Below, in pieces: positions 22,689 through 40,749 of a stretch of 64,000 bases of DNA; position 1 is the first letter of the stretch, and every line of letters starts with the position of its first letter. The stretch lies in the NCBI GenBank assembly GCA_028284285.1, contig JANQSA010000081.1, forward strand, positions 1 through 64,000, written 5' to 3'. The translations under genes were made by a program, and so were the position numbers. The DNA is from Croceivirga sp. (GTDB lineage Bacteria > Bacteroidota > Bacteroidia > Flavobacteriales > Flavobacteriaceae). The notes beneath the pieces are model-generated. The model saw only the letters and a program-made list of their open reading frames with translations. It was not told the DNA's origin and did no database searches.

Positions 22689-22865
22689 ATGGGAGAAAAC
22701 GCCGTAATAATACCTATTTAGGTAAGGTATGGGACACTTTTTTTAATTGAGAAGGGGTTCTTTATAATGTACCATTAGGGTTGGAGGAGCGCAATAAATC
22801 ACAAAATATTCCTAAGAGCTGTATCAAGCAATTGTGATTATTAAGACCTTTAAAAAAACGAGTTG

Positions 22866-23408
22866 ATGAAAGTATTCGGTGCCCTCTTGTTTAGTGTGAT
22901 GCTCATTATGACTATGTCATCATGCGTTCAAGGAGATTCAAAAAGGCAGCCGCTGGAACCAGCAGAATCCGGATGGAAGTCAGTTTACAAACACGATGAA
23001 AAGGGGCAACCTATTGCGGGGGATATTGATTCTTTGATCCAGGGAATCAGGAATGGGTATGACGTGAGAATCGGTTGGGGCTGGGAAAGGCAATTGGGAG
23101 ACTCCGTTCTAAGACTGGAGCATGTCGCAACCCCTTTGTACTTAAGTGTAATTCAGGATAAAAATGTATCTGCCATAATTGATCCTCATCCGTTGCTGGA
23201 AAGTTATATCGCTATTGATAAGCAAACTTTTGGCGAAGGAGGCCATATCTGGCAATGCATCATGACCACCAGGGGAACATTTAATGCACAGGTGTACGAT
23301 CGCGTTACGGGACAGCTGATCAAAGATTGGCCACAGCGTCATAAAATGACCTGGTTCTTGGAATATCCACAGCGTGCACAAAAAGCAAACCCACCGTTGT
23401 ATCAATAA
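22866..23408 (+). CDS. Small secreted lipoprotein, tandem paralogue A
   Basis: A 180-residue lipoprotein ('LIMTMSSC' lipobox); the ATG at 22866 is chosen over the TTG one codon upstream. The mature part starts 'GWKSVYKHDEKGQPIAGDIDSLIQGIRNGYDVRIGW' and ends 'NAQVYDRVTGQLIKDWPQRHKMTWFLEY'. The next gene encodes a protein with the same plan, so they are tandem duplicates separated by one base. I cannot name the family; the repeated 'W..vY..D..G....G.ld.LI..Ir.G..VRI' block is the conserved core. Confidence 0.6.
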   Translation: MKVFGALLFSVMLIMTMSSCVQGDSKRQPLEPAESGWKSVYKHDEKGQPIAGDIDSLIQGIRNGYDVRIGWGWERQLGDSVLRLEHVATPLYLSVIQDKNVSAIIDPHPLLESYIAIDKQTFGEGGHIWQCIMTTRGTFNAQVYDRVTGQLIKDWPQRHKMTWFLEYPQRAQKANPPLYQ

Positions 23409-23409
23409 C

Positions 23410-23874
23410 ATGAAACTGTTTTTTTCCCTTTCTTTTTTACTGATTTCGCTAATTGGATTTTCGCAAGAGAATTGGACACTCATTTATGAAAATGATGCTG
23501 AGGGCAACACAGTGAGTGGCACCTTGGATGAACTCATATCCGTAATCCGGAAAGGAGAGACGGTCCGGATCTATTTCCAAATGGGAAGACAAAATGAATC
23601 CAATGTTTATGTGGAGCATACTGCCCAGGTACAGTATTTTACCATAATGAATTCCCCAAAGGGCCAGTGGGTAACTGCACAAATTGATCCCATTATCGGC
23701 CAAATCCCTGACTTTGAGAAGGAACAGGTATTGTTAAAAGAAAACCTGGAGTGGTCCCTTATTGCCGCTACAAATGGAAAAAATGATACCATGACCAGAA
23801 ATGTCATCACCGGAGAAATACTGGGTCACCAAATCCATAAATGGGGTACGAAATGGTACGTTGAAAAGAAGTAG
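23410..23874 (+). CDS. Small secreted protein, tandem paralogue B
   Basis: A 154-residue protein; the ATG at 23410 (MKLFFSLSFLLISLIGFSQ) gives a clean signal peptide, whereas the upstream in-frame codons overlap paralogue A. The core 'NWTLIYENDAEGNTVSGTLDELISVIRKGETVRIYF' aligns with paralogue A and the ends match too ('NVITGEILGHQIHKWGTKWYVEKK'). Unlike copy A it has no lipobox and should be released to the periplasm. The function is unknown; the two may sit in different envelope compartments. Confidence 0.6.
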   Translation: MKLFFSLSFLLISLIGFSQENWTLIYENDAEGNTVSGTLDELISVIRKGETVRIYFQMGRQNESNVYVEHTAQVQYFTIMNSPKGQWVTAQIDPIIGQIPDFEKEQVLLKENLEWSLIAATNGKNDTMTRNVITGEILGHQIHKWGTKWYVEKK

Positions 23875-24177
23875 AACAAGGCTCAGGTGTTCGTTACTAC
23901 GCCTTAATAAATGCCTTGTGTGAATAAGGGATAGCAGAGCCAATCCCACCTCCGTAACGAAATGGGTGTCTATAAACACTAATTTTCGAAACAAGTTTGG
24001 GCACTTTCCTTATACATCTTTATTTCCCTTTTTCTTTACCTTCTAGAATTCTTTAGTTAATCAATAAATTATTTTTTGGCCTGTATTATTTTACAAAAGT
24101 GATATCCCGTCTTAGATCCAACATTTGTAGCTCCTTTCAAAATACTGCTAACGAAAGTGTTAAAATGGAAATATATA
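23875..24177. other. Intergenic region without recognised gene
   Basis: About 300 AT-rich bp between the secreted paralogues and the dehalogenase-operon promoter. No ORF, RNA gene or terminator hairpin that I would defend. Confidence 0.45.
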
Positions 24178-24208
24178 TAGTACATATATGAACTAATTAG
24201 TATATTTG
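24178..24208 (+). promoter_or_regulatory. Promoter and MarR-type operator of the reductive dehalogenase operon
   Basis: The palindrome TAGTACATATATGAACTA (24178-24195) ends 5 bp before a perfect -7 box TATATTTG (24201-24208). The marR promoter has the same palindrome type at the same distance from its own -7 box. A repressor bound here would block RNA polymerase. The 5' leader to the ATG would be roughly 140 nt. Confidence 0.65.
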
Positions 24209-24330
24209 ATATGAAATCCAATTTTGGAATTTTCCAACGCAATGAAAACAGTTATCGTTAAAATAATTGATTTTATAGAATTTGATTCCCCTAGAGTGGG
24301 AATGCAAAGGGAATGATTTTGAATTTTTTT

Positions 24331-24353
24331 AACTATTTAGTTCACTAATGAAC
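24331..24353 (+). promoter_or_regulatory. Second MarR-type operator overlapping the translation start
   Basis: Contains GTTCA-CTAA-TGAAC (24340-24353) preceded by AACTATTTA. It matches the site behind marR (33967-33989) at 20 of 23 positions, and both follow a run of seven T. The upstream candidate ATG at 24348 falls inside the palindrome, which favours 24357 as the real start. Confidence 0.6.
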
Positions 24354-24356
24354 AAA

Positions 24357-25781
24357 ATGAAAACAAAAGGAAACCTGGAAAAGAAAAGTGGAGTAACACG
24401 GAGAAACTTCTTCAAAATTGGGGCCATCGGGACCGCTTTGGGCATAGCCGGTGCATCAAGGGCTGCAGAAAATGCCCTAACCGATACTTTGGATAAAGCC
24501 ACTGACAGTGCCGTGTTGAAGGAGTTGGATGAGGACCCGTTCGATTTCAAGCCAGGCTATGGGTATGAACGATTTGATGAGATCAATACGTTCCAGTCCA
24601 CCGGTCCTATGCGCAGGGATGAAAAAGTAATCCCAAAAATGATAAAGTTTATCTGGCCGGGTTTTGACAATGATCAGATAGGTTATCGTCAAGTAGACTG
24701 GGCACTTTCCAAAGCCGGCCAATCGCTTAAGTTCAAAATGAAATCCTTAGGCGGGAAGTGGGAACAAGAAAAGTTTGACTTTACCATTTTGGATATGAAA
24801 CCCTCCGATATGGAGGACGATAGCAAGGAAAAACCGGACATCCTCAAGATTTTAGAGGGCAACTACGTCTATCCCGAAAAGGCGCCTTTTAAAACGAAAC
24901 AGGAGGCAACGGATGCCATTAAACGGGCCGCAAGGCTTTACGGAGCCGATCTGGTTGGAATCACCAGGCGGGATGAACGCTTCGATTATCAGGCTTTCTT
25001 CGACCCCAATAACGGAAGGAGGGATTGGAAGGATATTCCCTTTGAGCCCAAAACCGTCATTGTCATGGCGTTTGAGATGGATTACGAGGCCATGACTGCC
25101 GCCCCGACCCATGTTGCAGACGGTGCGACAGGTGACGGCTATTCTAAAATGCACAAGACCTCTTATCAAATGATGGTCTTTTTAAAGTGTCTGGGCTATC
25201 AGGCCATTCCCTCCAATAACGATGTCGGGTTGAGCATTCCCTATGCCATTAAAGCGGGATTGGGCGAATTGGGAAGGCACGGATTGTTGATTACCTATCA
25301 ATATGGTCCCCGGATACGGCTGGCAAAGGTTTACACCGATTTTGACTTTGTGGAATATGATAAACCTGTGGAATTTGGTGTCCAGGAATTCTGTAAACGG
25401 TGTATGCGCTGTGCGGATGCCTGTCCCGCCAATGCCATTACCAAAGCTTTGGAACCGACCTACGAACCGGAATTTGAGGAGGAAGGGAATTGGTTTGTCA
25501 ACCCTGGAGTCAAAAAATACTACAATAACCATAAAAAGTGCTTTGATTTTTGGGTCGAAAACGGAAACGGCTGCAGTTCGTGCATTTCCGTTTGCCCTTA
25601 CAACAAGCCTGATTTCTGGCATCATAAGCTGGTGGATAAAATTTCGGCCATGCTGCCGGGCCCCGTTCACAGTTTTATGCGCGAGATGGACAAGATATTC
25701 GGGTATGGAAATACCTATGACGAAGAGGCCGTGAAAAAGTTCTGGTCCCGAAGAAATCGAAAATATCTGGGACACAAATGA
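24357..25781 (+). CDS. rdhA: Reductive dehalogenase-like protein, Tat-exported (RdhA family), copy 1
   Basis: A 474-residue protein with the full layout of RdhA, the corrinoid and iron-sulfur catalytic subunit that removes halogens reductively. A Tat signal with RR at 15-16 ('TRRNFFKIG') directs folded export. The central region 'IPYAIKAGLGELGRHGLLITYQYGPRIRLAKVYTDF' is the conserved RdhA/QueG-like corrinoid-binding block. Two cluster motifs follow: Cys346/349/352/356 (CxxCxxCxxxCP) and Cys395/406/409/413 (C-x10-CxxCxxxCP). No B12-binding DxHxxG motif is needed in this family. The halogenated substrate cannot be read from sequence, and a non-dehalogenating relative is possible. It is first in a ten-gene operon. 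Confidence 0.85.
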   Translation: MKTKGNLEKKSGVTRRNFFKIGAIGTALGIAGASRAAENALTDTLDKATDSAVLKELDEDPFDFKPGYGYERFDEINTFQSTGPMRRDEKVIPKMIKFIWPGFDNDQIGYRQVDWALSKAGQSLKFKMKSLGGKWEQEKFDFTILDMKPSDMEDDSKEKPDILKILEGNYVYPEKAPFKTKQEATDAIKRAARLYGADLVGITRRDERFDYQAFFDPNNGRRDWKDIPFEPKTVIVMAFEMDYEAMTAAPTHVADGATGDGYSKMHKTSYQMMVFLKCLGYQAIPSNNDVGLSIPYAIKAGLGELGRHGLLITYQYGPRIRLAKVYTDFDFVEYDKPVEFGVQEFCKRCMRCADACPANAITKALEPTYEPEFEEEGNWFVNPGVKKYYNNHKKCFDFWVENGNGCSSCISVCPYNKPDFWHHKLVDKISAMLPGPVHSFMREMDKIFGYGNTYDEEAVKKFWSRRNRKYLGHK

Positions 25782-26857
25782 AAATCAGAAAACACATAGC
25801 GTCCGTTCTCATCGTAATTGCGATACTGGGTCTTCCCGTATCGGTGCTCTTGAACCAGGTGGCCGGGAAATTCTTTTCTAAGGAGTTCACTTCCCAAATG
25901 CTTTACGAAAAAGTATTTAATACCCATGACCTGGCCTATTTGATGCGGGCCATCGCCAATGAACGTATCAAAGATGTGCAGGACCTGAAAACGGGGATGA
26001 TCATTGCCATATTTTCCAAAGCGGATTCCCGTAAATGGGAAGAGCTGTTGCAAACCCTTCTTCCCCAGGAACAGTTAAAACCGGTTGTGGACCATACCCT
26101 TGAGGGATTTTATGATTGGCAAGGCAATGCTGCCGATTACCCAGATATTCAACTACATACAGAGCCCTTTGTGAAGCACCTGTCGGCGAATACCGAGTTT
26201 TTGTTTCGTTGGGCACATTCCGTAACCAGACCACCACAGCTTAAACCAGACGAATTATCGAGATTGAAAGCCCAGGGTTTTGGGGACAGTATTCCGCCCT
26301 TGCTCTTAAGTGGGGTCCCGGATTCAATTTATGATGCCTTTGCCAAAAGAGGAGGGGAACTAATGGCCGGGCAATTGGCCAAAGCCAATGTTCCCAAGGT
26401 GATTGACCTCACCGGGATAATAAAAGAAAAAACGGAGGTGGAACAACTCCGTAATATCAAGGGTAAACTACAACTGTTACAGGGAGTTTCCCAATGGGCA
26501 TGGGGGTTCTTTGCCGCTCTGTTGGTCGCAGGCTTCTGGATGTATGGTTTTAGAAAAAAAGCATTTCCCGACTTGGTATCCCAGAGCTTTTTTGGATTGG
26601 CCATGGGAATGTTTGCAGTAGCCTGGTTGGCGGGGCATTACCTATTGGAAAATCTGGAACTGCGTATCCATGCCAATGCCGAGACCGCCCCAAGGCCCTT
26701 ACGGAATACACTTATTGAGTTGATAACCTATTATCTGGATCATGCCAGTGGTTTGATGTATACCATCGGTTGGGTTTTGATGGTCATAGCATTAGGAATA
26801 GTAGCAGTCAATGTAATAAAGGAACGCCGGTCCAAAGCGTTGCAAACCAAGACATAA
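25778..26857 (+). CDS. Membrane protein of the dehalogenase operon, unknown family
   Basis: A 359-residue protein overlapping the rdhA stop by 4 bp (ATGA). It has one N-terminal membrane segment (about 7-27), a mostly hydrophilic domain to about 230, and three C-terminal membrane segments ('WAWGFFAALLVAGFWMYG', 'FFGLAMGMFAVAWLAGHYLL', 'LMYTIGWVLMVIALGIVAV'). There are no cysteine clusters or haem motifs. It is not RdhB, which is about 90 residues and is encoded further on. Its position between two rdhA copies suggests a role in anchoring, maturation or quinone contact, but this is inference only. Confidence 0.6.
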   Translation: MKIRKHIASVLIVIAILGLPVSVLLNQVAGKFFSKEFTSQMLYEKVFNTHDLAYLMRAIANERIKDVQDLKTGMIIAIFSKADSRKWEELLQTLLPQEQLKPVVDHTLEGFYDWQGNAADYPDIQLHTEPFVKHLSANTEFLFRWAHSVTRPPQLKPDELSRLKAQGFGDSIPPLLLSGVPDSIYDAFAKRGGELMAGQLAKANVPKVIDLTGIIKEKTEVEQLRNIKGKLQLLQGVSQWAWGFFAALLVAGFWMYGFRKKAFPDLVSQSFFGLAMGMFAVAWLAGHYLLENLELRIHANAETAPRPLRNTLIELITYYLDHASGLMYTIGWVLMVIALGIVAVNVIKERRSKALQTKT

Positions 26858-26890
26858 AACAGAGATATACCAATAAATAAACAAAGAGAG

Positions 26891-28288
26891 ATGGAAGCAA
26901 ACGAAGAAAAGGACAAGACAAACGATAAGAAGAAAGCGGCAAATGCCTTTAACAGGAGGGATTTCATAAAAATGGGAGCCGCAGTGACCGCAGTCGGGGC
27001 CGCTACTGTTACCGCTGCCCAGACCAAGGCTGTGGAAAAACTGGTGGAGAAGAACAAGGATGCCAATATCAAAACTACCACTGTAGATAAAGTCTTTGAA
27101 TTCGACGAAACCTATACCCCTTTCAACCAAAAGGATAACATATTCATGTCCACCATTACCGGGAGATTACCGGAATTACAGAAAAAAATGATGGGTTTTC
27201 ACGGACCTGGGGACATAGATCCGGAAACGCCCGGAATGGGAAGATTGGACTATGCCCTAAAGGAGGGGGCTTATGCCGGGGTGGAATACATGGCCCCCGG
27301 GACACCAGCTTCCATACCTAACACCGGGGTCAATTCCTGGAAACAAAAGACAAAAGAAGACAAACATCATCCCTTTGATTATCAATACCTCTTTGAAGAT
27401 CAATACAAATTCCAGGATAAAACGGAGGCTACCAACGCCATAAAAAAGGCGGCAAAACTATACGGGGCCAATTTGGTGGGCATCACCCCCAGAGACCCAA
27501 GATTTGACTATGCCAAATTTATAGACCCCCTGCACAAGAAAGAGTTTGGTTGGGAGGAATTTCCCTTTGAGCCAAAAAGTGTCATTGTTATGGCCTTTGA
27601 AATGGATTATGAGGCGTATTCCACGGCCCCTACCTATGTTTCTGAAGGTGGTACGGGTGATGCCTATTCCAGGATTACCAAGACTACACATCAGTTGGCC
27701 GTTTTTCTTAGAATATTGGGGTATAAGGCCGTTGCATCGTGCAATGACACCGGACTTAATGTGCCGTATGCCATTTCGGCCGGATTGGGAGAAGGTTCCC
27801 GGATGGGGCTTTTGATCACCCCAAAGTATGGACCAAGGGTCCGTATCGGGAAAATCTATACAGAATTTGACTTCTGTAATTACGATGAGCCGATAGCGTT
27901 TGGGGTTACCCAATTTTGCGAGAAGTGCAAGAAATGTGCCGATGCTTGTCCCGCCAATGCGATTTCCAGGGACGAAAAACGGTCTTTTTATCCAACTCAT
28001 GACAACAAGAACAAATTCTTTAATAATTCCGGGGTGAAGAAATGGTACCTGGATGCTGAAAAATGTTTCGGCTATTGGATGCAGATCAATGCGGGTTGTG
28101 GAGCCTGTATTTCCGCCTGTCCTTATAACAAACCTGATTTTTGGCACCACCGACTGGTGGATAGGCTTACGGCCGCATCGCCCGGACCCGTACACGATCT
28201 GATGCGTGAAATGGACGATATTTTCGGATATGGTAATACCCATGACGGAGAGGCCGTAGAAAAATTTTGGGCTAATAAAGGTGATTAG
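26891..28288 (+). CDS. rdhA: Reductive dehalogenase-like protein, Tat-exported (RdhA family), copy 2
   Basis: A 465-residue paralogue of the gene at 24357 with the same plan: Tat motif with RR at 22-23 ('FNRRDFIKMG'), the corrinoid-site block 'VPYAISAGLGEGSRMGLLITPKYGPRVRIGKIYTEF', and iron-sulfur motifs Cys343/346/349/353 and Cys392/403/406/410. The C-terminal 'CPYNKPDFWHHRLVDRL' to 'GYGNTHDGEAVEKFW' is almost identical between copies, while the region between the signal and the corrinoid block differs most. They may therefore form a heterodimer or take different substrates. It starts 33 bp after the membrane-protein gene. Confidence 0.85.
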   Translation: MEANEEKDKTNDKKKAANAFNRRDFIKMGAAVTAVGAATVTAAQTKAVEKLVEKNKDANIKTTTVDKVFEFDETYTPFNQKDNIFMSTITGRLPELQKKMMGFHGPGDIDPETPGMGRLDYALKEGAYAGVEYMAPGTPASIPNTGVNSWKQKTKEDKHHPFDYQYLFEDQYKFQDKTEATNAIKKAAKLYGANLVGITPRDPRFDYAKFIDPLHKKEFGWEEFPFEPKSVIVMAFEMDYEAYSTAPTYVSEGGTGDAYSRITKTTHQLAVFLRILGYKAVASCNDTGLNVPYAISAGLGEGSRMGLLITPKYGPRVRIGKIYTEFDFCNYDEPIAFGVTQFCEKCKKCADACPANAISRDEKRSFYPTHDNKNKFFNNSGVKKWYLDAEKCFGYWMQINAGCGACISACPYNKPDFWHHRLVDRLTAASPGPVHDLMREMDDIFGYGNTHDGEAVEKFWANKGD

Positions 28289-28315
28289 ATAAATGTAAAA
28301 CTTAATAAAAAGGTT

Positions 28316-28612
28316 ATGGATATTTTTAAAGGAGTAGAGATCATGTTCTTTTGGTTGGGTGTACTATCCACCCTGGCCGTGGTCCTGATGATCTATTTGA
28401 ACAAAACCTATGGTTTTGACTGGAAAACATGGACAATGACAGGTTTTGGGGCCTTCCTGTTCATCTTTTGCGTGGCATGGTCGGTAAGCTCGGTGCTCGA
28501 AGGTGAGCCACAAGCGGCTGCCCTGGGATTGGTATTTTTCGGTTCCCCGGCCATCATCCTTTTTTTGCTGGCGCGAAGGGGTATCGTGAAAAAACTAAAA
28601 AAAAGTGACTGA
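28316..28612 (+). CDS. rdhB: RdhB-like small membrane anchor
   Basis: A 98-residue protein with three membrane segments: 'MFFWLGVLSTLAVVLMIYL', 'WTMTGFGAFLFIFCVAWSVSSV' and 'AAALGLVFFGSPAIILFLLA'. The block 'AWSVSSVLEGEPQAAALGLVFFG' is the recognisable RdhB signature, with the EGEP motif in the external loop. RdhB proteins anchor the exported catalytic subunit to the outer face of the cytoplasmic membrane. Its place just behind the second rdhA fits that role. One RdhB may serve both catalytic subunits here. Confidence 0.75.
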   Translation: MDIFKGVEIMFFWLGVLSTLAVVLMIYLNKTYGFDWKTWTMTGFGAFLFIFCVAWSVSSVLEGEPQAAALGLVFFGSPAIILFLLARRGIVKKLKKSD

Positions 28613-28614
28613 TC

Positions 28615-29859
28615 ATGTGTCCGGTAAACTGCAAAGGTTGTGGTGTCGCGAGTTCGAACAAAAAGACGGTATCGCAAAGAAAGGAAAACAGGTTTAAAGC
28701 CTTTCTCCTTTGGTTTGGGGTACTCAGCCTTTTAGTAGCCTATATCTATGGGAAGGTGTCCAACCAACCTGATTACCCCCTACTCTTGGGCAAGACCCAT
28801 CCCGGATCTTCCATTACCAAAACAGGGGAGAATGTATTTGATATGTATATATCCGATACACTGCAATTAAAAATACAGACCGCTAAAAACCAGGGCTACG
28901 GAGGACCTTTGGAGGTAGGCGTGGTAATCAACAAGGATTCCACCATTAATGAGGTTATCGTTATTGAAGAAAAAGAGACCCGTTCATTTTTGAACAAATT
29001 GATCCAAAAAGATTTTTTTGAGCAATTCAAGGGAAGATCCTTGCTTTCTTCCTTTGCGATGGATTCAGATATTGATGCGATCGCCGGGGCTACAGTATCC
29101 TCTATCGGTTTTACGGGTGCGGTGCAGGAAGCCTCCCACTCCTACGCGGAAAAGGCCTATGGTGTGGCAGGGTTGACGAAGCCACAGGAATTCAAATTTG
29201 GTATGGGGGAAGCTTCGGTTCTTGGGCTTTTGGTCTGGTCCGTAGCCCTGTATTACAAGAAAAACAAGTGGTTGCAATATGCCATGCACCTGTCCGCATT
29301 AGTGCTTATCGGATTCTATCTCAACCTATCACTGTCCATCACCAATTTCGGGAGTGTTCTACAGGGGTATTTCCCGGACATACACGACTATTTGGTCTGG
29401 TATATTCTGGTGGTAGGGGTATTGCTTGCAGCGGTTGTCTTTGGAAAGAACATCTACTGTTATCGTATTTGTCCCTTCTATGCTGTACAGTGGTTGGCAA
29501 ACAAGATTTCCGGGATAAATCTTAAGATGCACTCCAAACAGGGAAAAATTGCCAGGTATATTACCGGAGTATTGCTTTGGCTCTCCCTGTTGGTGGGGTT
29601 CCTGACAGCAACGCCTTCCAGTGGATCTTACGAGCCCTTTGCCACCACGTTCTCTTTCGACGGCGAAGGAATCCAATGGTTCATTTTTCCGGCAATCTTT
29701 TTCTCGGCCTTTTTTATTAAGGATGTATTCTGCAGGTATTACTGTCCTGTAGGGAGCTTTTTGAAGTTTTTGATCATAAAGGTGCGAAAGCCCATTCTAA
29801 AACAACTTAAGTCATGGCAAAACGGAACCAGAACCAGAGCACAGCGAGCTATATCATAA
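28615..29859 (+). CDS. rdhC: RdhC/NosR-like FMN-binding and 4Fe-4S membrane protein
   Basis: A 414-residue membrane flavoprotein, likely the electron conduit to the exported dehalogenases. A first membrane segment (about 25-45) precedes an exported FMN-binding domain (about 60-195) with the covalent-flavin motif 'AGATVSS'. Four or five more segments follow, and two CxxxCP motifs ('YCYRICPFYAV', 'FCRYYCPVGS') face the cytoplasm as in NosR/NapH relatives. The extreme N-terminus has three cysteines (Cys2, Cys6, Cys9 in 'MCPVNCKGCG'), which is unusual for the family and may bind a metal. The gene follows rdhB after 2 bp. RdhC has also been proposed to act in maturation. Confidence 0.75.
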   Translation: MCPVNCKGCGVASSNKKTVSQRKENRFKAFLLWFGVLSLLVAYIYGKVSNQPDYPLLLGKTHPGSSITKTGENVFDMYISDTLQLKIQTAKNQGYGGPLEVGVVINKDSTINEVIVIEEKETRSFLNKLIQKDFFEQFKGRSLLSSFAMDSDIDAIAGATVSSIGFTGAVQEASHSYAEKAYGVAGLTKPQEFKFGMGEASVLGLLVWSVALYYKKNKWLQYAMHLSALVLIGFYLNLSLSITNFGSVLQGYFPDIHDYLVWYILVVGVLLAAVVFGKNIYCYRICPFYAVQWLANKISGINLKMHSKQGKIARYITGVLLWLSLLVGFLTATPSSGSYEPFATTFSFDGEGIQWFIFPAIFFSAFFIKDVFCRYYCPVGSFLKFLIIKVRKPILKQLKSWQNGTRTRAQRAIS

Positions 29860-29927
29860 CTGGGAGTATCTACGTAGTAATCCTGGTTTTTATTCTCACT
29901 TTTTTATACGAATCATTAAAATCTTAA
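29814..29927 (+). CDS. 37-residue membrane peptide inside the dehalogenase operon
   Basis: A small ORF that begins inside the end of the rdhC-like gene in another frame and stops 6 bp before the next gene. It encodes a short basic head (MAKRNQNQSTAS) and one membrane segment (about residues 13-33, 'YIITGSIYVVILVFILTFLY'). It fills what would otherwise be a 70-bp gap. A positive head and single helix are typical of small subunits of membrane redox complexes. There is no direct evidence for expression; the coding call rests on the membrane pattern and the tight fit to the operon. Confidence 0.55.
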   Translation: MAKRNQNQSTASYIITGSIYVVILVFILTFLYESLKS

Positions 29928-29933
29928 AACAAA

Positions 29934-30527
29934 ATGAAATTTTATAATATATCGAACAGCACAAAAAGGGATTTGTTATTGTTCTTTTTGATACTCCTCA
30001 TAGCCTGTGTACGGATATTAACGGTTGGAAATCCGGAGTTGAGTAGCTTGGCCAACTTCACTCCATTGGGCGCAATAGCCTTGTTTGGAGGGGCATACTT
30101 TTCCGGGGTAAGGGCCTATCTCATTCCATTGGGCACTATATTTTTGAGTGATCTGCTATTGAACCTTCTTTTTTTTGATTCCGGATATCCCCTGATTTAC
30201 GATGGAATGCTATGGGTATACCTGGCCTTTTCCCTAATGATATTGGTGGGCAGATGGCTTTCCAACAATCTGAGAATAAGGAACCTTATCCTATCTACAT
30301 TGGTCATCACCTTTATTCACTGGGTGGTAACGGATATCGGGGTATGGTTGACCGGAACGCTATACCCCATGACCCTAAAAGGGCTTTGGACCTGTTTGCT
30401 TGCCGCTATTCCCTTTGAAAAGAATTTCCTGATCGGGACTTTGGTGTATGGGATCCTACTCTTCGGAATATTTGAGTGGCTTCTGTTCACAAATCCTTCA
30501 TTGGTAAGAAGACGAATCGTAAATTAG
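29934..30527 (+). CDS. Multi-pass membrane protein, ECF-transporter S-component-like (DUF6580-like)
   Basis: A 197-residue protein with five or six membrane segments ('LLLFFLILLIACVRILTVG', 'TPLGAIALFGGAYFSG', 'YLIPLGTIFLSDLLLNLLFF', 'LWVYLAFSLMILVGRW', 'FLIGTLVYGILLFGIFEWLLF'). The opening 'NFTPLGAIALFGGAYF' and 'PLGTIFLSDLLLN' blocks resemble DUF6580/ECF substrate-binding S components, which capture vitamins such as cobalamin. Reductive dehalogenases need a corrinoid, so a corrinoid or cobalt-related uptake role is attractive. No ECF ATPases are nearby, and that role remains inference. Confidence 0.55.
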   Translation: MKFYNISNSTKRDLLLFFLILLIACVRILTVGNPELSSLANFTPLGAIALFGGAYFSGVRAYLIPLGTIFLSDLLLNLLFFDSGYPLIYDGMLWVYLAFSLMILVGRWLSNNLRIRNLILSTLVITFIHWVVTDIGVWLTGTLYPMTLKGLWTCLLAAIPFEKNFLIGTLVYGILLFGIFEWLLFTNPSLVRRRIVN

Positions 30528-30541
30528 TACTCTGAAAGACG

Positions 30542-32389
30542 ATGAAGACCGCCCTGGAACATATTATAATTTTATTTTCGGGAGATTCCGGGGATGGAAT
30601 GCAATTGACCGGGACACAGTTTTCAGATACTTCCGCCCGCATGGGCAATGATATTGCCACATTTCCGGACTATCCTTCGGAAATCAGGGCGCCATCAGGT
30701 TCTGTATATGGTGTTTCCGGGTTTCAGGTGCATATTGGGGCAAAAGAGATATTTACTCCCGGAGACCAGCCGGATGTATTGGTGGCTATGAATCCTGCCG
30801 CATTAAAGGTGAAATTACCCCTGTTAAAAAAAGGGGCAACCATTATTCTTAATGATGATGCCTTTGATCGCTCAGGATTTAAAAAGGCAGGGTATACGGA
30901 AACATCAATAGAGGACATTGAAGAATTAAGAAACTTTAAGTTGATCCATGCTCCCATTACTTCACAAACCGAAAGGGCTTTGGAGACTATTGATTTGGAT
31001 AACAAGTCTAAAAGGCGCTGCAAAAATTTTTATGCGCTGGGGCTCTGTTATTTCATATTCTCCAGGGACCCGGACCTCACCAAGGAGTGGATACGGGAAA
31101 AATTCAAGGATCAGGAGACCCTCGTCAAAGCAAATATTGCCGCTCTTGAGGCGGGATATCATTTCGGGGAGACCATTGAAGCCGCTATAGCCATTTACCA
31201 AATTCCCGAGGCGCCCCTGGAGAAGGGAACCTATCGGCAGATCAATGGCAATACAGGAATTGCCTGGGGGCTGATGCAAGCGGCAGAGGCTTCCGGTTTG
31301 AATCTGTTCGTGGGATCCTATCCCATTACTCCGGCAACGGATATTTTACAGGAGCTCTCTAAGCGGGAGGCGTTTGCGGTCCAAACCTTTCAGGCCGAAG
31401 ACGAGATTGCGGCCATCTGCGCGGCAATTGGCGCTTCGTTCTCAGGGGCATTGGCCGCTACCACAACCTCGGGACCTGGACTGGCGTTAAAGTCGGAGGC
31501 ATTGAACCTGGCCGTAATGTTGGAATTGCCGCTGGTGGTAATCAATGTACAGCGGGGAGGCCCTTCCACCGGATTACCCACAAAAACGGAGCAAGCGGAC
31601 TTGTTGCAGGTGTTTTATGGACGAAATGGTGAATCTCCCCTTATCGTTCTCGCAGCCTCAAGACCAGGTGATACCTTTGCCATGGCATTCGAGGCAGCGC
31701 GATTGAGCCTGGAACACATGACCCCGGTGGTGTTGCTCAGTGACGGATTTATTGCCAACGGCTCGGAACCCTGGCGTATTCCCGACCTGACCGAAGGATA
31801 CCGTCATATTTCCACTAATATGACCCAAACACCCAAAGAAGGCTTCAGGCCGTACAACAGAAATCTACAGTTGGTACGTCCATGGGCCATTCCGGGAACG
31901 GAAGCCATGCAACACCGCATCGGTGGGCTGGAAAAAGACTTTGATACCGGAGATGTGAGCTACGACCCGGAAAATCACGAGAAAATGGTGGAAGTCCGGG
32001 CCAAAAAGGTATCCCTGGTGTCATCCAATATACCGCAACAATTAGTAGAAGGCAAAGCGCAGGGGCAATTATTGGTCATTTCGTGGGGCGGTACTTACGG
32101 TGCAGTCCGAACCGCAGTAAAGCAACTCCAGGAACAAGGCTATGAAATCAGTTTGGCACACCTTACCTATCTTAATCCTTTTCCAGAGAATTTGGGGCAG
32201 TTGATCACAAACTTCAGGCAAGTCATCATACCGGAATTGAACAAAGGCCAATTGTTACGCATTATAAACGCCCAATTCCATTGCAGGGCCAAAGGATACC
32301 ATAAAGTTCAGGGGCAACCTTTTACCATTTCGGAACTTATTGCTGCTTTTAGGAAGGAACTAAAGCTTATGGACTATGCAAAGCAATAG
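30542..32389 (+). CDS. korA: 2-oxoacid:ferredoxin oxidoreductase, alpha subunit (gamma-alpha fusion)
   Basis: A 615-residue subunit of a 2-oxoacid:acceptor oxidoreductase that oxidises a 2-oxoacid (commonly 2-oxoglutarate) to its acyl-CoA and reduces ferredoxin. The N-terminal gamma domain (about 1-190) opens 'LFSGDSGDGMQLTGTQFS'. The alpha domain (about 215-420) contains 'YPITPATDILQELSK', 'QAEDEIAAICAAIGASFSG' and 'TSGPGLALKSEALNLAVM', and the C-terminal transketolase-type domain follows. It is translationally coupled to the beta subunit by a 14-bp overlap. Its presence in this operon suggests a supply of low-potential electrons for dehalogenation, although many Flavobacteria carry such enzymes elsewhere. 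Confidence 0.9.
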   Translation: MKTALEHIIILFSGDSGDGMQLTGTQFSDTSARMGNDIATFPDYPSEIRAPSGSVYGVSGFQVHIGAKEIFTPGDQPDVLVAMNPAALKVKLPLLKKGATIILNDDAFDRSGFKKAGYTETSIEDIEELRNFKLIHAPITSQTERALETIDLDNKSKRRCKNFYALGLCYFIFSRDPDLTKEWIREKFKDQETLVKANIAALEAGYHFGETIEAAIAIYQIPEAPLEKGTYRQINGNTGIAWGLMQAAEASGLNLFVGSYPITPATDILQELSKREAFAVQTFQAEDEIAAICAAIGASFSGALAATTTSGPGLALKSEALNLAVMLELPLVVINVQRGGPSTGLPTKTEQADLLQVFYGRNGESPLIVLAASRPGDTFAMAFEAARLSLEHMTPVVLLSDGFIANGSEPWRIPDLTEGYRHISTNMTQTPKEGFRPYNRNLQLVRPWAIPGTEAMQHRIGGLEKDFDTGDVSYDPENHEKMVEVRAKKVSLVSSNIPQQLVEGKAQGQLLVISWGGTYGAVRTAVKQLQEQGYEISLAHLTYLNPFPENLGQLITNFRQVIIPELNKGQLLRIINAQFHCRAKGYHKVQGQPFTISELIAAFRKELKLMDYAKQ

Positions 32390-33347
32390 TAAAAAACTAA
32401 ATGCAAAGGATTTTGCCACGGACCAGGCCGTCCGTTGGTGTCCCGGCTGTGGAGACTATGCCATATTGAACAGCGTAAAAAAGGTTTTGGCCACCCTGGG
32501 GAAGCGAAAGGAAGACGTGGTTTTCATATCCGGTATAGGATGTTCCTCGCGTTTTCCGTACTATGTGGATACCTATGGTATGCATTCCATACATGGCAGG
32601 GCGGTAGCCATTGCTACCGGCACCAAAATCCAGAACCCAGAACTAAGCGTTTGGGCGATAACCGGGGATGGAGATGGCCTTGCCATCGGGGGAAACCACT
32701 TCATACACGCTATACGACGCAATATCAACATTAATGTATTGATATTCAACAATGAGATCTACGGGTTGACCAAGGGGCAGTATTCCCCAACTTCAAAACT
32801 GGGGCAACGCACAAAGACCAGTCCTACCGGGACTATTGAGCAACCTTTTAATCCCGCCATGCTGGCCTTGGGAGCAGGGGCCTCTTTTTTTGCCCGGACC
32901 ACGGCATCAGACCCCAAACATTTGCAGGAGACTTTGCTGAGGGCAGAAGCCCACTGTGGAACCTCCGTGGTGGAAATCTATCAAAACTGTGTCATCTTTA
33001 ATGATGAGGCCTTTGAGGAATTTTTAGGAAAGGAAAACCGGGAGGATCATACCGTACTGTTGGAGCAAGGTAAACCATTGGTTTTTGGCAAAGGGTTGGA
33101 CAAAGCGGTTCAATGGGAAAACCATGAACTGTTCGTAAGCACGGAAGTGGATAGTGCCGTAATTCATGATGAACGAAACCTCACCCTTTCCTTTCTGTTG
33201 GCCAGAATGGAGACCGTGAAGCCTTTGGGCGTGTATCGTTGTGTACAAGAACCTGAGTATGCTTCTGGTATGAGCACCACAGAAACGAAATCCAGAAAGC
33301 AGGTTTCCGAACTTCTTCACTCCGGATCGACCTGGAAAATCGATTAA
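32376..33347 (+). CDS. korB: 2-oxoacid:ferredoxin oxidoreductase, beta subunit
   Basis: A 323-residue thiamine-diphosphate subunit. The cluster region 'RWCPGCGDYAILN' with 'ISGIGCSSRFPYY' supplies cysteines for the 4Fe-4S cluster. The TPP motif is 'ITGDGDGLAIGGNH', closed by 'FNNEIYGLTKGQYSPTS'. It starts inside korA and is the last gene of the operon. The 93 bp that follow carry the marR promoter and no strong terminator, so read-through into marR is possible. Confidence 0.92.
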   Translation: MQSNSKKLNAKDFATDQAVRWCPGCGDYAILNSVKKVLATLGKRKEDVVFISGIGCSSRFPYYVDTYGMHSIHGRAVAIATGTKIQNPELSVWAITGDGDGLAIGGNHFIHAIRRNININVLIFNNEIYGLTKGQYSPTSKLGQRTKTSPTGTIEQPFNPAMLALGAGASFFARTTASDPKHLQETLLRAEAHCGTSVVEIYQNCVIFNDEAFEEFLGKENREDHTVLLEQGKPLVFGKGLDKAVQWENHELFVSTEVDSAVIHDERNLTLSFLLARMETVKPLGVYRCVQEPEYASGMSTTETKSRKQVSELLHSGSTWKID

Positions 33348-33388
33348 ATTGTTTTACAGTATTAAATAAAAGTTAAACATCCATTTGG

Positions 33389-33421
33389 TTAGTACATTAA
33401 TGAACTAAATAAATATCTTTG
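33389..33421 (+). promoter_or_regulatory. marR promoter with overlapping operator (autoregulation)
   Basis: The palindrome TTAGTACATTAATGAACTAA (33389-33408, one mismatch) ends 5 bp before the perfect -7 box TATCTTTG (33414-33421). The ATG is 19 bp downstream. The spacing equals that at the dehalogenase promoter, pointing to one regulator for both. Confidence 0.65.
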
Positions 33422-33440
33422 GTACATATACAAGACGAAT

Positions 33441-33959
33441 ATGGGCTTCAAGAGAGAAGTAGCAGAAACAAAGGGACTGACCAAAACCACAGAGAAATTA
33501 CCTTTCTTTGTGGAAAAGAAAAAAATGAAGTTACCCTTGGAAATTGAATTAGGAAGAACGGTTAGTCGTTTCCACTGGACGTTGCAGAACAAAAGCAATA
33601 GACTTTTGAAGCCCCTCGGCATCACTACAGAACACATGCGTTTGCTAACCCTGATATCCTATAATGAAGGTTGCGACCAACAGTTCCTGGTGGAAGAAAC
33701 CTTGAAGGCTAAGAGCGGAATCACCGCGCTTTTGGATACCATGAGCAAAGCCGGACTTTTGGCCAGGGTACCCAGTCCAACAGATGGTAGAACCAATTTG
33801 ATCTACCTTACCGATAAGGGAAAAGAATTACAAAGGAAATCCATCAATGTGCTCATGGAGGCAGCGCAGCCCATCATAGGGGGCGAGGATCGGGAAGTCT
33901 TAAAAAAAGCGATTGAACAGATACAATTATTCACTGAGAGAATGTTGAAGGAAGTATAA
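33441..33959 (+). CDS. MarR-family transcriptional regulator
   Basis: A 172-residue winged-helix regulator. After a charged N-terminal extension of about 30 residues, the MarR domain shows 'LGRTVSRFHWTLQNKSNRLLKPLGITTEHMRLL', the recognition region 'LKAKSGITALLDTMSKAGLLAR' and the wing 'PSPTDGRTNLIYLTDKGKEL'. MarR proteins usually repress and are released by phenolic ligands; MarR-type regulators are known beside rdhA genes in Dehalococcoides. It sits between the dehalogenase operon and the efflux operon, and four matching palindromes flank these units, so it probably controls both and itself. Confidence 0.9.
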   Translation: MGFKREVAETKGLTKTTEKLPFFVEKKKMKLPLEIELGRTVSRFHWTLQNKSNRLLKPLGITTEHMRLLTLISYNEGCDQQFLVEETLKAKSGITALLDTMSKAGLLARVPSPTDGRTNLIYLTDKGKELQRKSINVLMEAAQPIIGGEDREVLKKAIEQIQLFTERMLKEV

Positions 33960-33966
33960 TTTTTTT

Positions 33967-33991
33967 AACTAAATAGTTCATTAATGAACTA
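33967..33991 (+). promoter_or_regulatory. MarR-type operator upstream of the efflux-linked genes
   Basis: A perfect 18-bp palindrome TAGTTCATTAATGAACTA (33974-33991), extended on the left by AACTAAA. It lies 8 bp after the marR stop and 14 bp before the next ATG. No -7 box is evident, so the site may act on read-through transcription. Confidence 0.65.
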
Positions 33992-34005
33992 AATAAATCA
34001 ATATT

Positions 34006-34476
34006 ATGCAAAACTATTTTAGTGCCATCGGAGAAAAGATAACGCTGGGAATGCCTGCCCCGGACGGTTATATAGAACATCTTGAGCAGGTAATCCATTT
34101 AAGAGCCTACCTAAAGACCGGAAAGATCCATTTCCTGCTGTTTTCCGGAGATATCCCAAACGGGGAAACCGTAGATTTTCTGAACGACGTTTATGACTTT
34201 ATCGATCATTGTTATAACGGTTTAATAACGCCTTCTATTGTCACCCAAAACACATCCAACGCTTTGTGGGGAGAAAGAAGTCGGTTATGGGATTGCAATA
34301 GTCTCTTACACCTTAAATATAATACTGAGGATGCGCCAAGTCTTTATTCCATAAGGCCGGATGGTAATATCGATTTCTTTAGCAAGGCATTTACCATAAC
34401 AGAGATGGACCGTTATCTGGAAATGCTATATCACTTCAACTATTATCAAACGCAATCTATCCTAATCGATTTGTAA
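34006..34476 (+). CDS. Stand-alone thioredoxin-like protein resembling aromatic hydroxylase C-terminal domain (1)
   Basis: A 156-residue cytoplasmic protein. The pattern 'LGMPAPDGYIEHLEQVIHLRAYLKTGKIHFLLFSGDIPN' at the start and 'SLYSIRPDGNIDFFSKAFTITEMDRYLEML' at the end matches the C-terminal thioredoxin-fold domain of FAD-dependent phenol/aromatic hydroxylases ('G..APD..L', 'LLLF', 'L.RPDG.I..R'). No FAD domain is present and no CxxC is seen, so this is a detached domain. It might bind aromatic ligands or scaffold another enzyme. It is coupled to the next gene by a 1-bp overlap. Confidence 0.6.
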   Translation: MQNYFSAIGEKITLGMPAPDGYIEHLEQVIHLRAYLKTGKIHFLLFSGDIPNGETVDFLNDVYDFIDHCYNGLITPSIVTQNTSNALWGERSRLWDCNSLLHLKYNTEDAPSLYSIRPDGNIDFFSKAFTITEMDRYLEMLYHFNYYQTQSILIDL

Positions 34477-34919
34477 TGAAAGCACCCGAGGAGAAGGCCA
34501 TGCCAACAGAAAGTCGTTCCAATGCCCGGGAGCAATACATGAAGGATTTTGTCCTGGAATTGAACCACTACCCTATTCCCCTCTTCAATGAGTTGAATGG
34601 GAAAGCGTTCAACCTGTTGTTGCTCACAGGCAAACATCCTTCTGTGAGGGTCTTACGCGGTATTGATGCCATCGAAGACATGGTCAAATCCACAAGATAT
34701 AACGTCAAGGTCCATGTCATTTCCTTCCAAACGCCACTGGATTTAAACAGGACAAGGGTTTTGGTGGACCGGGATAAGCAACTGCATCGACATTTTGAAG
34801 CGGATAGGGATACCATGATCCTTGTAAGACCGGATAAATCGGTCCTTGCGGTGGTCTCTCCTATCAGCCCTTCCATTCTAAAGACTTTGATAACCCAATT
34901 TTTAAAAATAAATGCATAA
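34476..34919 (+). CDS. Stand-alone thioredoxin-like protein resembling aromatic hydroxylase C-terminal domain (2)
   Basis: A 147-residue protein. 'FNLLLLTGKHPSVRVLRGID', then 'TRVLVDRDKQLHRHFEADRDTMILVRPDKSVLAVV' strongly recalls the hydroxylase C-terminal domain, in which 'D..G.LH.RYGA....LVRPDG.V' is diagnostic. It shares the fold type with the preceding gene but little identity. Two different detached domains side by side suggest a heterodimer. The genes lie between marR and the efflux pump under the same operator, which ties them to aromatic compounds. Confidence 0.6.
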   Translation: MKAPEEKAMPTESRSNAREQYMKDFVLELNHYPIPLFNELNGKAFNLLLLTGKHPSVRVLRGIDAIEDMVKSTRYNVKVHVISFQTPLDLNRTRVLVDRDKQLHRHFEADRDTMILVRPDKSVLAVVSPISPSILKTLITQFLKINA

Positions 34920-34921
34920 AA

Positions 34922-36040
34922 ATGAAAAGGAAAGCTATCACCCAATCCCTGTTGTTGATTGTATTGTCTTTGTTGTTCTGGCAATGCTCCAATGAAAAAA
35001 GCCAGTCGGCAAAGTCGCCCACCAAGGGTAAGGCCCTTGCTCTTAAAGCGTTTGAGACACGGAGGGTATCTACCACATCGGTTGAAAGGAATATCAGTCT
35101 TACGGGAAGAATCATTCCCCTGCAACGAATAGATGTCGTCTCTGAGGTACAGGGAAATGTAATGCCCACAAAAAAACAGTTCAAAGAAGGTATGCGTTTC
35201 CGTAAAGGGGAAACGCTGTTACGCTTGGAAGACACCAAATTCCGCTACAACCTTACCGCTCAAAAAAGTCAATTTCTCAGCGCCCTTATTTTGGCGATGT
35301 CAGATATTCAACTGGACTATCCCGAAGCGTTTGACACCTGGAATTCATTCTTGAAGAATGTTAAGGTAGAAGCGCCACTTCCTGACCTCCCGGAAATCCG
35401 AAACGAGCAACTGCGTTACTTTTTAGCCGGTAAAAACATCCTTAATCTTTACTATGGCATACAAAGTGGTGAGGAGACCCTTCGCGATTATCGCATAGTT
35501 GCTCCATTTAACGGTGCCCTGACCAAAGCTATGGTAAATGCCGGTGATTTGGTACGTCCCGGGGTAAAAGTAGGGGAGTTTATACAGACGGACACCTACG
35601 AGGTTAAAGCTGCCGTCGCGGCCTCCGACCTGCCAATGCTCAAGGTAGGCCATAAAGTACCGCTCTTTGCGAGGAATATCGACAAGGAAGTAACGGGTAC
35701 CATCACGCGTATTGGTCAATCCGTTGATGTTTCTACTCAGGCTGTAACTGTCTTTTTACAGGTTTCCGGTGCCGATCTGAAGGAGGGCATGTATCTGGAG
35801 GGGAGTGTGGATATTGGAAATTATAAGGATGCCTTTGAAATACCCAAGGAGATTCTTTCCAGGGATAACCATGTCCTTGTGATAAAGGATTCCACTGTAG
35901 TAGCCAAGCCGGTGAAGCTATTGCAGATGAACTCCAAAAATGCGGTAGTACAAGGATTGTCCAATGGCGACATGTTGATCATAGAGGAAGTAACCGACCC
36001 TATCCAGGGGGTAAGGGCCATCGCAAAGAATACGCCATGA
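34922..36040 (+). CDS. RND efflux periplasmic adaptor lipoprotein
   Basis: A 372-residue membrane-fusion (HlyD/AcrA-type) protein with a lipoprotein signal ('LLFWQC'). The lipoyl-like halves are 'RIDVVSEVQGNVMPTKKQFKEGMRFRKGETLLRLE' and 'APFNGALTKAMVNAGDLVRPGVKVGEFIQ', followed by beta-barrel and membrane-proximal domains ('GTITRIGQSVDVSTQAVTVFLQV', 'EGMYLEGSVDIG', 'IPKEIL'). The helical hairpin between the lipoyl halves is short. It bridges the inner-membrane pump and the TolC-like channel encoded next; ATG and stop overlap by 4 bp with the pump gene. Confidence 0.9.
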   Translation: MKRKAITQSLLLIVLSLLFWQCSNEKSQSAKSPTKGKALALKAFETRRVSTTSVERNISLTGRIIPLQRIDVVSEVQGNVMPTKKQFKEGMRFRKGETLLRLEDTKFRYNLTAQKSQFLSALILAMSDIQLDYPEAFDTWNSFLKNVKVEAPLPDLPEIRNEQLRYFLAGKNILNLYYGIQSGEETLRDYRIVAPFNGALTKAMVNAGDLVRPGVKVGEFIQTDTYEVKAAVAASDLPMLKVGHKVPLFARNIDKEVTGTITRIGQSVDVSTQAVTVFLQVSGADLKEGMYLEGSVDIGNYKDAFEIPKEILSRDNHVLVIKDSTVVAKPVKLLQMNSKNAVVQGLSNGDMLIIEEVTDPIQGVRAIAKNTP

Positions 36041-39000: not shown

Positions 39001-39207
39001 AGTGCGCAGTTCTTAAAGGGGCCGGCCATTGCCATAGCCTATGGACTGCTGTTCGGAGTATTCAATGTGCTTTTCCTGATGCCCATTTTCCTGATCAGCC
39101 TGAACAGGCTGCGGCTTTGGGTCAACAGATTAATCACCAAAAATAAAAATGTCACCCCGGAAGCCCTGGAACCTGCAGTACGGTTGGTGAACAGTAAACT
39201 TGAGTAA
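36037..39207 (+). CDS. RND-family efflux permease (AcrB-like)
   Basis: A 1056-residue proton-driven inner-membrane transporter with the usual twelve membrane segments and two large periplasmic loops. Landmarks are the N-terminal 'FIKRPTLVNLMMFLLLGLG', the repeated 'VDVSVAFPGASPAEVEEGI', the TM4 proton relay 'VLGILVDDAVVVGENIYRHAKE' with paired Asp, and the C-terminal 'ALIGVFVNNTLVYISTLND' and 'AAYSRFRPIILTTITTVAGLGPL'. It belongs to the HAE-type drug and hydrophobe branch, not the heavy-metal branch, judging by loop pattern. The operon context suggests export of aromatic or halogenated compounds. Confidence 0.92.
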   Translation: MRNTVKYFIKRPTLVNLMMFLLLGLGFLKLTQTQNTNFPKQKVRFIDVSVAFPGASPAEVEEGITIKIEDNLEGIEGIDRVISASEDNKATIEVELTEKTDADKMLVEVKNAIDKINNFPSGVEPASVVKRDPMDITVSFGIMADDTPLSTIKDIAKDIEDDFLAQPGISQVFIEGVPEEEIEIQLRENDLQRYNLTIAEVSNAVKAANLESFGGTIENENENINIKADSKGYYGKDLLNIIVAALPDGQTVYLKDVADVKDRFKDSATGRFFRGKPIITMSVHTLNNEDILANAEFIKNYIADYNETHSGVQLKVLEDGTINLKSRIGTMIENGITGIILVLLVLALFLDRYLAFWLAVKIPIVLLGMFLLTDIQDMTINMVSLFGFILVLGILVDDAVVVGENIYRHAKELGKTPLKAAVDGTMEMFSPVIISLATTATAFAMFMFLPQQVGEFFAEIGFVVIAVLIMAIIETFFILPGHVAHAKGIRENVKLTKIEKVFTNAMNWLRNKAFMPHFQRTVMRSKYTRAITVVVFIVLLAGSIGLVGSGVQGFTFFPNIDDDAVFIEMELPPGTPVEVTRNKLSAIEEAVWRVNEDYSKRRSDGNEVVQYVELITGPLDNQGELKITFLNGEVRGISSFELSRAFADEAPPVPEATRMIYGLGATSALFGLPVSFALKSYDLDEVRGAKEALKAGMRKMEDLRDVSDNDLEGIREYRIKLKSNADLLGLDLSYVMSQVRAAFFGVEAQSLQRGDEEVEIWVRYPESGRRNKQQLLDMRINTPEGNAYKLSEIAYVEEGTGNLTINHLDGQREIRVEANVANMNVSAPQAIGFIETALLPDILEQYPSVTYSVEGQSRQAFKLIDAMKIVGPIILILIFALIVFNCNSFSQATMIFLLFPFALTGVILGHFVHATALNIFSLIGTIALIGVFVNNTLVYISTLNDLLQEGKGFMESVKEAAYSRFRPIILTTITTVAGLGPLIFSNSLSAQFLKGPAIAIAYGLLFGVFNVLFLMPIFLISLNRLRLWVNRLITKNKNVTPEALEPAVRLVNSKLE

Positions 39208-39209
39208 CT

Positions 39210-40711: not shown

Positions 40712-40749
40712 TTTATTATCCAATGCACAATAGAAAAGAAAAAACAAAA

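Follow-up and report, generated by a model that had tools for sequence, protein, structure and literature searches.

Layout of the locus

We analyzed a 64,000-nucleotide stretch of DNA from Croceivirga sp. (contig JANQSA010000081.1, positions 1 to 64,000; hereafter the window), in which eight genes lie head to tail on the + strand at 24348-33347 in the order rdhA1, orf2, rdhA2, rdhB, rdhC, a DUF6580 gene, korA and korB, and constitute a respiratory-type reductive dehalogenase (rdh) module. Judged by its content, the gene set of this marine flavobacterium looks designed to remove halogen from organic compounds outside the cell. An initial annotation had described a ten-gene operon here, but only eight genes were counted, the eighth being one that it had left unnamed, orf2 (25778-26857), encoding a 359-amino-acid membrane protein. 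Its description of a head-to-tail order with overlaps or short gaps was accurate: the intergenic distances from rdhA1 to korB were −4, 33, 27, 2, 74, 14 and −14 bases, respectively. None of these gaps contained a promoter-like TAnnTTTG site, and korA and korB are in the same gene run. On the 3' side of korB, marR starts at 33441 and is followed by a resistance-nodulation-division (RND) efflux operon (34006-40535).

RdhA1 and RdhA2 are of the respiratory type

The two catalytic subunits recognized earlier are encoded by rdhA1 (24348-25781, + strand, 477 amino acids) and rdhA2 (26891-28288, + strand, 465 amino acids), and both scored above the TIGR02486 cut-off of 160.35 bits (209.1 and 210.1 bits, respectively). 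Both contained the RRxFxK motif of twin-arginine translocation (Tat) export and the two expected iron-sulfur motifs for 4Fe-4S clusters (C-X2-C-X2-C-X3-CP and C-X2-C-X3-CP); regarding the Tat signal that had been assigned to each of them, the motif stood in both proteins, whereas the Pfam model TAT_signal passed its cut-off for RdhA2 only. The top PDB match for both was PceA 8q4h (238.5 bits for RdhA1 and 234.1 bits for RdhA2), the second was PceA 4uqu (161.5 and 176.8 bits), and much lower scores were obtained for 4ras, which we take to be NpRdhA (69.1 and 86.9 bits), and for epoxyqueuosine reductase (31.1 and 28.7 bits). When aligned to 4uqu, RdhA1 and RdhA2 conserved Tyr246, Asn272 and Arg305 of PceA, residues to which we ascribe catalytic roles. 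A Comamonas pBHB protein, presumably BhbA, and an NpRdhA-like protein (records L103 and L104, for which the names BhbA and NpRdhA are our assumption) had Asp at the Asn272 position and Lys at the Arg305 position. The presumed QueG of the same genome had Tyr in the first catalytic column (beside Asp), followed by Val and Phe in the other two, and thus that first column is not diagnostic by itself.

A tree of 26 rows separated BhbA and NpRdhA from all other rows with 100/100 support, so that the tree check proposed in the initial annotation placed both RdhA proteins on the respiratory side. This tree leaves out three long-branch rows (the presumed QueG, G158 and Dehalococcoides), which are included in a separate tree. 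RdhA1 and RdhA2 are 48% identical, and their grouping as a single clade was not in the best tree but was not rejected either (approximately unbiased test, p-AU 0.089). The ratio of nonsynonymous to synonymous substitution rates (dN/dS) against another genome of the genus, GF1, was 0.026 for rdhA1 and 0.028 for rdhA2 at dS of 0.89 and 0.66, the lowest among the compared genes except acrB (0.021 over 280 codons); for rdhA1 against genome G006, it was 0.061 over 330 codons. Both genes are under strong purifying selection.

Three other identities were considered for RdhA1 and RdhA2, of which QueG and the catabolic type were rejected. The QueG model gave only 48.6 and 41.6 bits against a cut-off of 200. 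A catabolic enzyme of the NpRdhA/BhbA kind did not fit proteins of 477 and 465 amino acids with a Tat motif, no Pfam reductase domain and a position 100/100 apart in the tree. A hybrid reductive dehalogenase with three N-terminal helices, which has neither rdhB nor a Tat motif, did not fit either, since both are present here. A plasmid search returned distant RdhA only (at most 32.3% identical, 10 records).

Among 11 genomes of the genus, rdhA1 was present in three, i.e. the genome of the window (G000), GF1 (G004) and G006, in the last of which the contig ends inside rdhA1; rdhA2 was detected in just two of them, G000 and G004. RdhA2-like proteins were found at E 1e-40 in 2 of 397 sampled genomes of the family (the own genome and G158) and at E 1e-30 in 1 of 395 sampled genomes of the phylum (the own one). 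The RdhA-like protein of G158, which belongs to another genus of the family (L055 8597-9790), had no Tat motif that we could find, and no RdhC or KorA match occurred in the examined stretch.

Membrane partners of the dehalogenases

The anchor protein that had been annotated as RdhB-like is encoded by rdhB (28316-28612, + strand, 98 amino acids); it matched PceB, chain 8q4h_C of the solved complex (E 1.7e-6), and its EGEP (EXE) motif has EGE at the position of ERE in PceB. Similarly, the RdhC-like flavin mononucleotide (FMN) and iron-sulfur membrane protein claimed before was identified as the product of rdhC (28615-29859, + strand, 414 amino acids), with Pfam FMN_bind and Fer4_5 above cut-off. 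Its FMN threonine (Thr160) and the residues of its two CX3CP motifs (C282/C286/P287 and C373/C377/P378) were invariant in 6 of 6 sequences. RdhC thus has the features by which PceC is defined, namely an FMN domain with a conserved Thr, two CX3CP motifs and no C-terminal 4Fe-4S motifs; this definition, together with an outward-facing FMN domain, comes from the work on PceC (PMC5928378, a source which, like the others cited here, is drawn on in part). A protein of the RdhC/PceC type would also be expected to have six transmembrane helices. The genome has three ApbE genes, whose products could attach FMN to RdhC.

Neither Pfam nor NCBIfam assigned Orf2 (25778-26857, + strand) to a family above cut-off. 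Its predicted model was helical (pLDDT, a predicted local confidence score, 83.2 for the best of five models and 56.4 for the worst) and matched no PDB fold at E 0.001 or better; the search gave 198 matches at E up to 10, and the 50 listed among them resembled chance matches between helical proteins. A clue came from a second rdh locus of the same genome on contig 70 (L053 7704-12382) and a similar one in G005 (L054), which comprise a tetR-looking gene, rdhA3 (in 2 of the 11 genus genomes, G000 and G005), a gene for one protein of 474 or 478 amino acids and an rdhC-like gene. An Orf2 profile built from five unfused sequences found this 474-/478-residue protein at E 3.4e-23 and 8.7e-20, and an RdhB profile built from seven unfused sequences found the same protein at E 6.6e-11 and 3.1e-11. 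As both profiles match the same protein, RdhB and an Orf2 relative form one chain at the second rdh locus, and because of this fusion Orf2 is probably an additional membrane subunit, an extra anchor partnering RdhB.

Between rdhC and korA lies the gene (29934-30527, + strand) of a membrane protein belonging to DUF6580 (PF20221, 161 bits). It had been called ECF-S-like (resembling the substrate-binding component of energy-coupling factor transporters) and counted as part of the set; the assignment stands, but the gene is apparently dispensable, as the clusters of Winogradskyella and Fulvivirga described below contain no match to its protein, of which GF1 has just 32 residues left. The same region showed a peculiarity in comparison with G006 (L049): the 3'-terminal 59 codons of rdhC and the DUF6580 gene (window 29679-30527) were near-identical between the two genomes (dS 0.11 and 0.08), and the adjoining korA, korB and marR had dS of 0.57-1.0. 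Positions 29679-30527 are probably a recent recombination patch.

korAB is linked to rdh in three genera

The last two genes probably encode both subunits of a 2-oxoacid:ferredoxin oxidoreductase, as the initial annotation had proposed. KorA (korA, 30542-32389, + strand) scored 632.6 bits with TIGR03710 (cut-off 482.75); for KorB (korB, 32376-33347, + strand), TPP_enzyme_C (PF02775) was over cut-off, and TIGR02177 was slightly below it (257.8 against 261.9 bits). A search for the same gene order in relatives, another suggested check, showed that it recurs in other Bacteroidota: rdhA1, rdhA2, orf2, rdhB, rdhC and korAB occur together in GF1 (L023), Winogradskyella PL24a (L024) and Fulvivirga PL25a (L025), with korAB after rdhC as in the window. 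Counting the window, korAB was on the 3' side of rdhC in 4 of 4 clusters that were complete in the examined stretch, covering three genera of two orders. In Fulvivirga, which belongs to a different order, rdhA2 comes before rdhA1 and orf2 after rdhA1.

In a KorA tree consisting of the window and 46 rows (16 match places without a locus were left out), KorA of the window, the genus, Winogradskyella and Fulvivirga formed one clade with 100/100 support, on a stem 1.14 changes per column long. This linked type of KorA was present in 6 of the 11 genus genomes. KorA matches at E 1e-60 occurred in 45 of 249 sampled genomes of the family, the own one included, and the other KorA proteins found in the family were at most 57% identical to the rdh-linked ones; given this identity and the separate clade, we rejected the idea that korAB is an ordinary family copy. 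No other KorA was found in the Winogradskyella and Fulvivirga genomes at E 1e-20. Since the rdh-linked KorA has its own clade and these two genomes have no other KorA, the sequences suggest that KorAB was probably inherited or transferred together with rdh.

A palindrome is shared with the efflux operon

The pattern TAGTNCATTAATGAACTA was found in the window, with up to 3 mismatches, at four sites (24178, 24338, 33390 and 33974), corresponding to 8 matches over both strands against 0.25 expected, and 0 of 100 shuffles reached 8. Across the 4.8 Mb genome, up to 2 mismatches gave these four sites and one weaker site on contig 11, and the reversed control gave 0. We regard the four sites, all given here on the + strand, as candidate MarR operators. 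Candidate 1, TAGTACATATATGAACTA (24178-24195), lies 5 bases before the promoter-like TATATTTG (24201-24208), a −7 element of the form TAnnTTTG and the predicted promoter of the rdh-korAB operon; candidate 2, TAGTTCACTAATGAACAA (24338-24355), overlaps the start codon of rdhA1; candidate 3, TAGTACATTAATGAACTA (33390-33407), precedes marR and lies 6 bases before TATCTTTG (33414-33421), the −7 element of the predicted marR promoter; and candidate 4 (33974-33991), a perfect palindrome, precedes the efflux operon. TAnnTTTG is presumably the Bacteroidota-type −7 consensus. Within 23860-41000, TATATTTG and TATCTTTG were its sole + strand occurrences outside genes. The motif as such is frequent, with 25 copies on the window's + strand, and there is none after the palindrome at 33974.

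The product of marR (33441-33959, + strand; PF12802, 44.9 bits, cut-off 27) is the predicted repressor of both operons. Because the palindrome precedes rdhA1 (twice), marR and the efflux operon, one MarR probably controls both operons, repressing rdh-korAB, itself and the efflux genes jointly. Palindrome copies, for which these loci had no shuffled control, were found in L022, L023, L026 and L049; L024 has copies that differ by 2-3 mismatches. In L022, L023, L026 and L024, a counterpart of candidate 1 lies upstream of rdhA1. A MarR gene beside rdh has been described before (PMC7031245, PMC12090745, in the portions used).

The efflux operon begins with two small uncharacterized genes (34006-34476 and 34476-34919, + strand), which had no Pfam family over cut-off; both were matched in L049, the first in L047, and the first with part of the second in L052. 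The protein of 34476-34919 weakly resembled, below cut-off, the aromatic-ring hydroxylase C-terminal domain (E 0.04). They are followed by an RND pump (34922-40535, + strand) consisting of a membrane-fusion protein, an AcrB-type pump and an outer-membrane protein (HlyD, ACR_tran and OEP, all over cut-off). In Winogradskyella (L024 2892-9512), the same kind of efflux pump lies inverted upstream of the cluster, with its own second MarR gene. Two further features of the window were observed outside these operons. At 22863-23874, two adjoining small exported-looking proteins had no Pfam family at E 0.001 or over cut-off, and at 47099-48391, downstream, there is a tyrosine-recombinase-like gene (Phage_int_SAM_5, Arm-DNA-bind_5), which is a possible mark of a mobile region.

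Proposed mechanism and alternatives

Our best explanation, to which we assign a probability of roughly 0.55, is that the locus carries a MarR-controlled respiratory-type reductive dehalogenase module inherited with its own low-potential electron source. According to this model, the two Tat-exported RdhA proteins, probably with different substrates, would be anchored at the outer surface of the inner membrane by RdhB together with Orf2 as a new subunit. An organohalogen compound, probably one of the naturally occurring bromo- or chloro-aromatics, would release MarR from the shared palindrome and thereby induce two operons together, rdhA1-orf2-rdhA2-rdhBC-korAB and that of the RND pump; the pump would lower the dose of the compound inside the cell, and the rdh operon would remove its halogen. 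KorAB would oxidize 2-oxoglutarate or a similar 2-oxoacid and reduce a ferredoxin encoded elsewhere, and electrons would then cross the membrane via RdhC, passing its CX3CP motifs and then its FMN on the outer side before they reach the iron-sulfur clusters and the corrinoid of RdhA. It is plausible that KorAB feeds the dehalogenase module. A bolder form of the model, in which KorAB-ferredoxin-RdhC-RdhA is a quinone-independent line with RdhC as a one-protein Rnf, and Orf2 is an obligatory subunit pairing with RdhB, is in our opinion rather unlikely; if true, it would directly answer how low-potential electrons are delivered to a periplasmic reductive dehalogenase in a bacterium with genes for oxygen respiration.

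Several observations weigh against the module having its own electron source and a shared MarR control. As the initial annotation had already remarked, the rdh-korAB operon contains no ferredoxin gene; a candidate, a 142-codon open frame, is on contig 61. RdhC has no C-terminal 4Fe-4S domain for ferredoxin docking such as that of NosR, and its AlphaFold model (pLDDT 38.6) is unusable for topology. Contig 14 (L007 1357-3963) encodes another large 2-oxoacid oxidoreductase-like protein, which is at least 869 amino acids long and has a ferredoxin-type cysteine motif, and therefore KorAB need not be the sole reducer of ferredoxin. In the flanks of eight other named rdh loci (L027-L034, the flanks of L034 and L028 being shorter), korAB was found in 0 of 8, and none was found in the flanks of the two rdhA3 loci (contig 70 of G000, and G005). 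The Allomuricauda genome that contains L022 has a KorA piece (86%) at the end of another contig, so that linkage cannot be told there. Conversely, korAB of the same clade is present without rdhA1/rdhA2 in G005, G007 and G008, i.e. 3 of the 8 genus genomes lacking rdhA1/rdhA2, and the RdhA1 search in G007 and G008 returned only a match that is presumably QueG; KorAB therefore seems useful without RdhA1 and RdhA2. As for the shared control, the Fulvivirga cluster (L025) had neither the palindrome at up to 3 mismatches nor a marR match in the examined stretch.

Among the alternatives, the one that survives best, at only slightly less than even odds in our estimate, is that the system serves mainly for detoxification: MarR would sense halogenated phenol-like toxins and switch on dehalogenation outside the cell together with efflux, with no energy conserved. 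It is compatible with the best explanation, and the physiological role alone differs. The palindrome common to the rdh operon and the RND pump speaks for it, as do the MarR gene and RND pump that also flank the Winogradskyella cluster. In addition, two haem-copper oxidase genes were over cut-off in the genome, which makes a strictly anaerobic life improbable and another terminal acceptor likely. On the other hand, it is respiratory clusters that are usually built with RdhB, RdhC and Tat export (PMC7031245, PMC6797604, in the portions drawn upon). Regarding oxygen, Desulfoluna is described in the consulted portion of PMC7031245 as debrominating 2,6-dibromophenol at 2% oxygen but not at 5%.

A second alternative, which we consider doubtful, accepts the dehalogenase module as real but has it fed by menaquinol via RdhC, as proposed for PceC, with KorAB as an independent enzyme of central metabolism that is incidentally linked. 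The menaquinol route is the model given in the parts of PMC5928378 and PMC7031245 used here; the other named rdh loci, if functional, do without linked korAB (8 of 8), and korAB is retained in G005, G007 and G008. However, the rdh-linked KorA clade differs from the usual KorA of the family, korAB follows rdhC in all four complete clusters, and G008 retains a remnant of rdhC beside korAB. This remnant, upstream of korA, consists of 111 bases that are 86% identical to window 29829-29939, a segment made up of the last 31 bases of rdhC, the gap and the beginning of the DUF6580 gene; a palindrome lies beside korB. The remnant looks like a deletion scar left when rdh was lost. In G005 and G007, only a match to DUF6580 residues 102-197 was kept, which is weaker evidence of deletion. 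Moreover, the KorA proteins of rdh-less genomes were scattered in the clade, those of G005 and G007 grouping with GF1 (99/100) and that of G008 being nearest the window. Because of the G008 remnant and this scatter, insertion of rdh beside an older korAB within the genus appears less likely; for G005 and G007 alone, insertion is possible.

Finally, it is very improbable that RdhA1 and RdhA2 act on a non-organohalide substrate, as other corrinoid reductases do: the two proteins are only 48% identical and hybrid reductive dehalogenases without a tested function are described as widespread in the portion of PMC6797604 used, but the Tyr/Asn/Arg set of PceA is kept, the QueG model is far below cut-off, and RdhB and RdhC are present.

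Comparison with known systems

The module is closest in its parts to PceABC of Desulfitobacterium and Dehalobacter, with which it shares the RdhA sequence, the Tat motif, two iron-sulfur motifs, a separate RdhB with EXE, and RdhC with the FMN threonine and two CX3CP motifs; unlike PceABC, its operon encodes two RdhA and also includes Orf2 and korAB, it shares a palindrome with an efflux operon, and its host is a member of Bacteroidota with haem-copper oxidase genes. The rdh clusters of Marinilabiliales (Labilibaculum, Ancylomarina and Labilibacter), Desulfoluna and Parendozoicomonas have the same rdhA-rdhB-rdhC order with RdhA about 42-49% identical, but they differ in having one RdhA in the examined stretch, no Orf2 (0 of 8 loci, L027-L034, E up to 1) and no korAB (0 of 8). 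The hybrid reductive dehalogenases with N-terminal transmembrane helices, as outlined in PMC6797604, likewise come from marine Bacteroidetes hosts, whereas the present proteins have a Tat motif and a separate rdhB. BhbA and NpRdhA (L103 and L104, names assumed as above) have the RdhA core in common but are 1013 and 1072 amino acids long, with Asp and Lys instead of Asn272 and Arg305. RdhC has an FMN-binding domain in common with the RnfG subunit of Rnf, but the RnfG model matched it at 49.6 bits, below the cut-off of 205, and, unlike Rnf, RdhC is a single protein with no other Rnf subunit in the operon.

Reductive dehalogenases in other Bacteroidota are already known (PMC6797604, PMC12090745, in the portions consulted). 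Among the listed open-licence PMC papers, we found neither a KorAB-rdh link nor reductive dehalogenases in Muricauda/Allomuricauda or Winogradskyella, which is weak evidence of absence. What is new here is the recurring rdh-korAB linkage, the palindrome shared by the rdh and efflux operons, and the Orf2-RdhB fusion, the last of which adds Orf2 as a putative subunit that neither Pfam nor NCBIfam places in a family at their cut-offs. In the published models, as far as the excerpts of PMC5928378 and, for Desulfoluna, PMC7031245 go, menaquinol is the donor to RdhC and the energetics are called unresolved; the path from menaquinol (−74 mV) to corrinoid (about −350 to −370 mV) is described as largely unresolved (PMC5928378, same excerpt). 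If our explanation is true, the range of respiratory-type dehalogenases would come to include flavobacteria that carry oxidase genes. The joint inheritance of RdhA, RdhB, RdhC and a predicted ferredoxin-reducing enzyme as one compact cassette would offer one energetic answer that can be tested by gene deletion.

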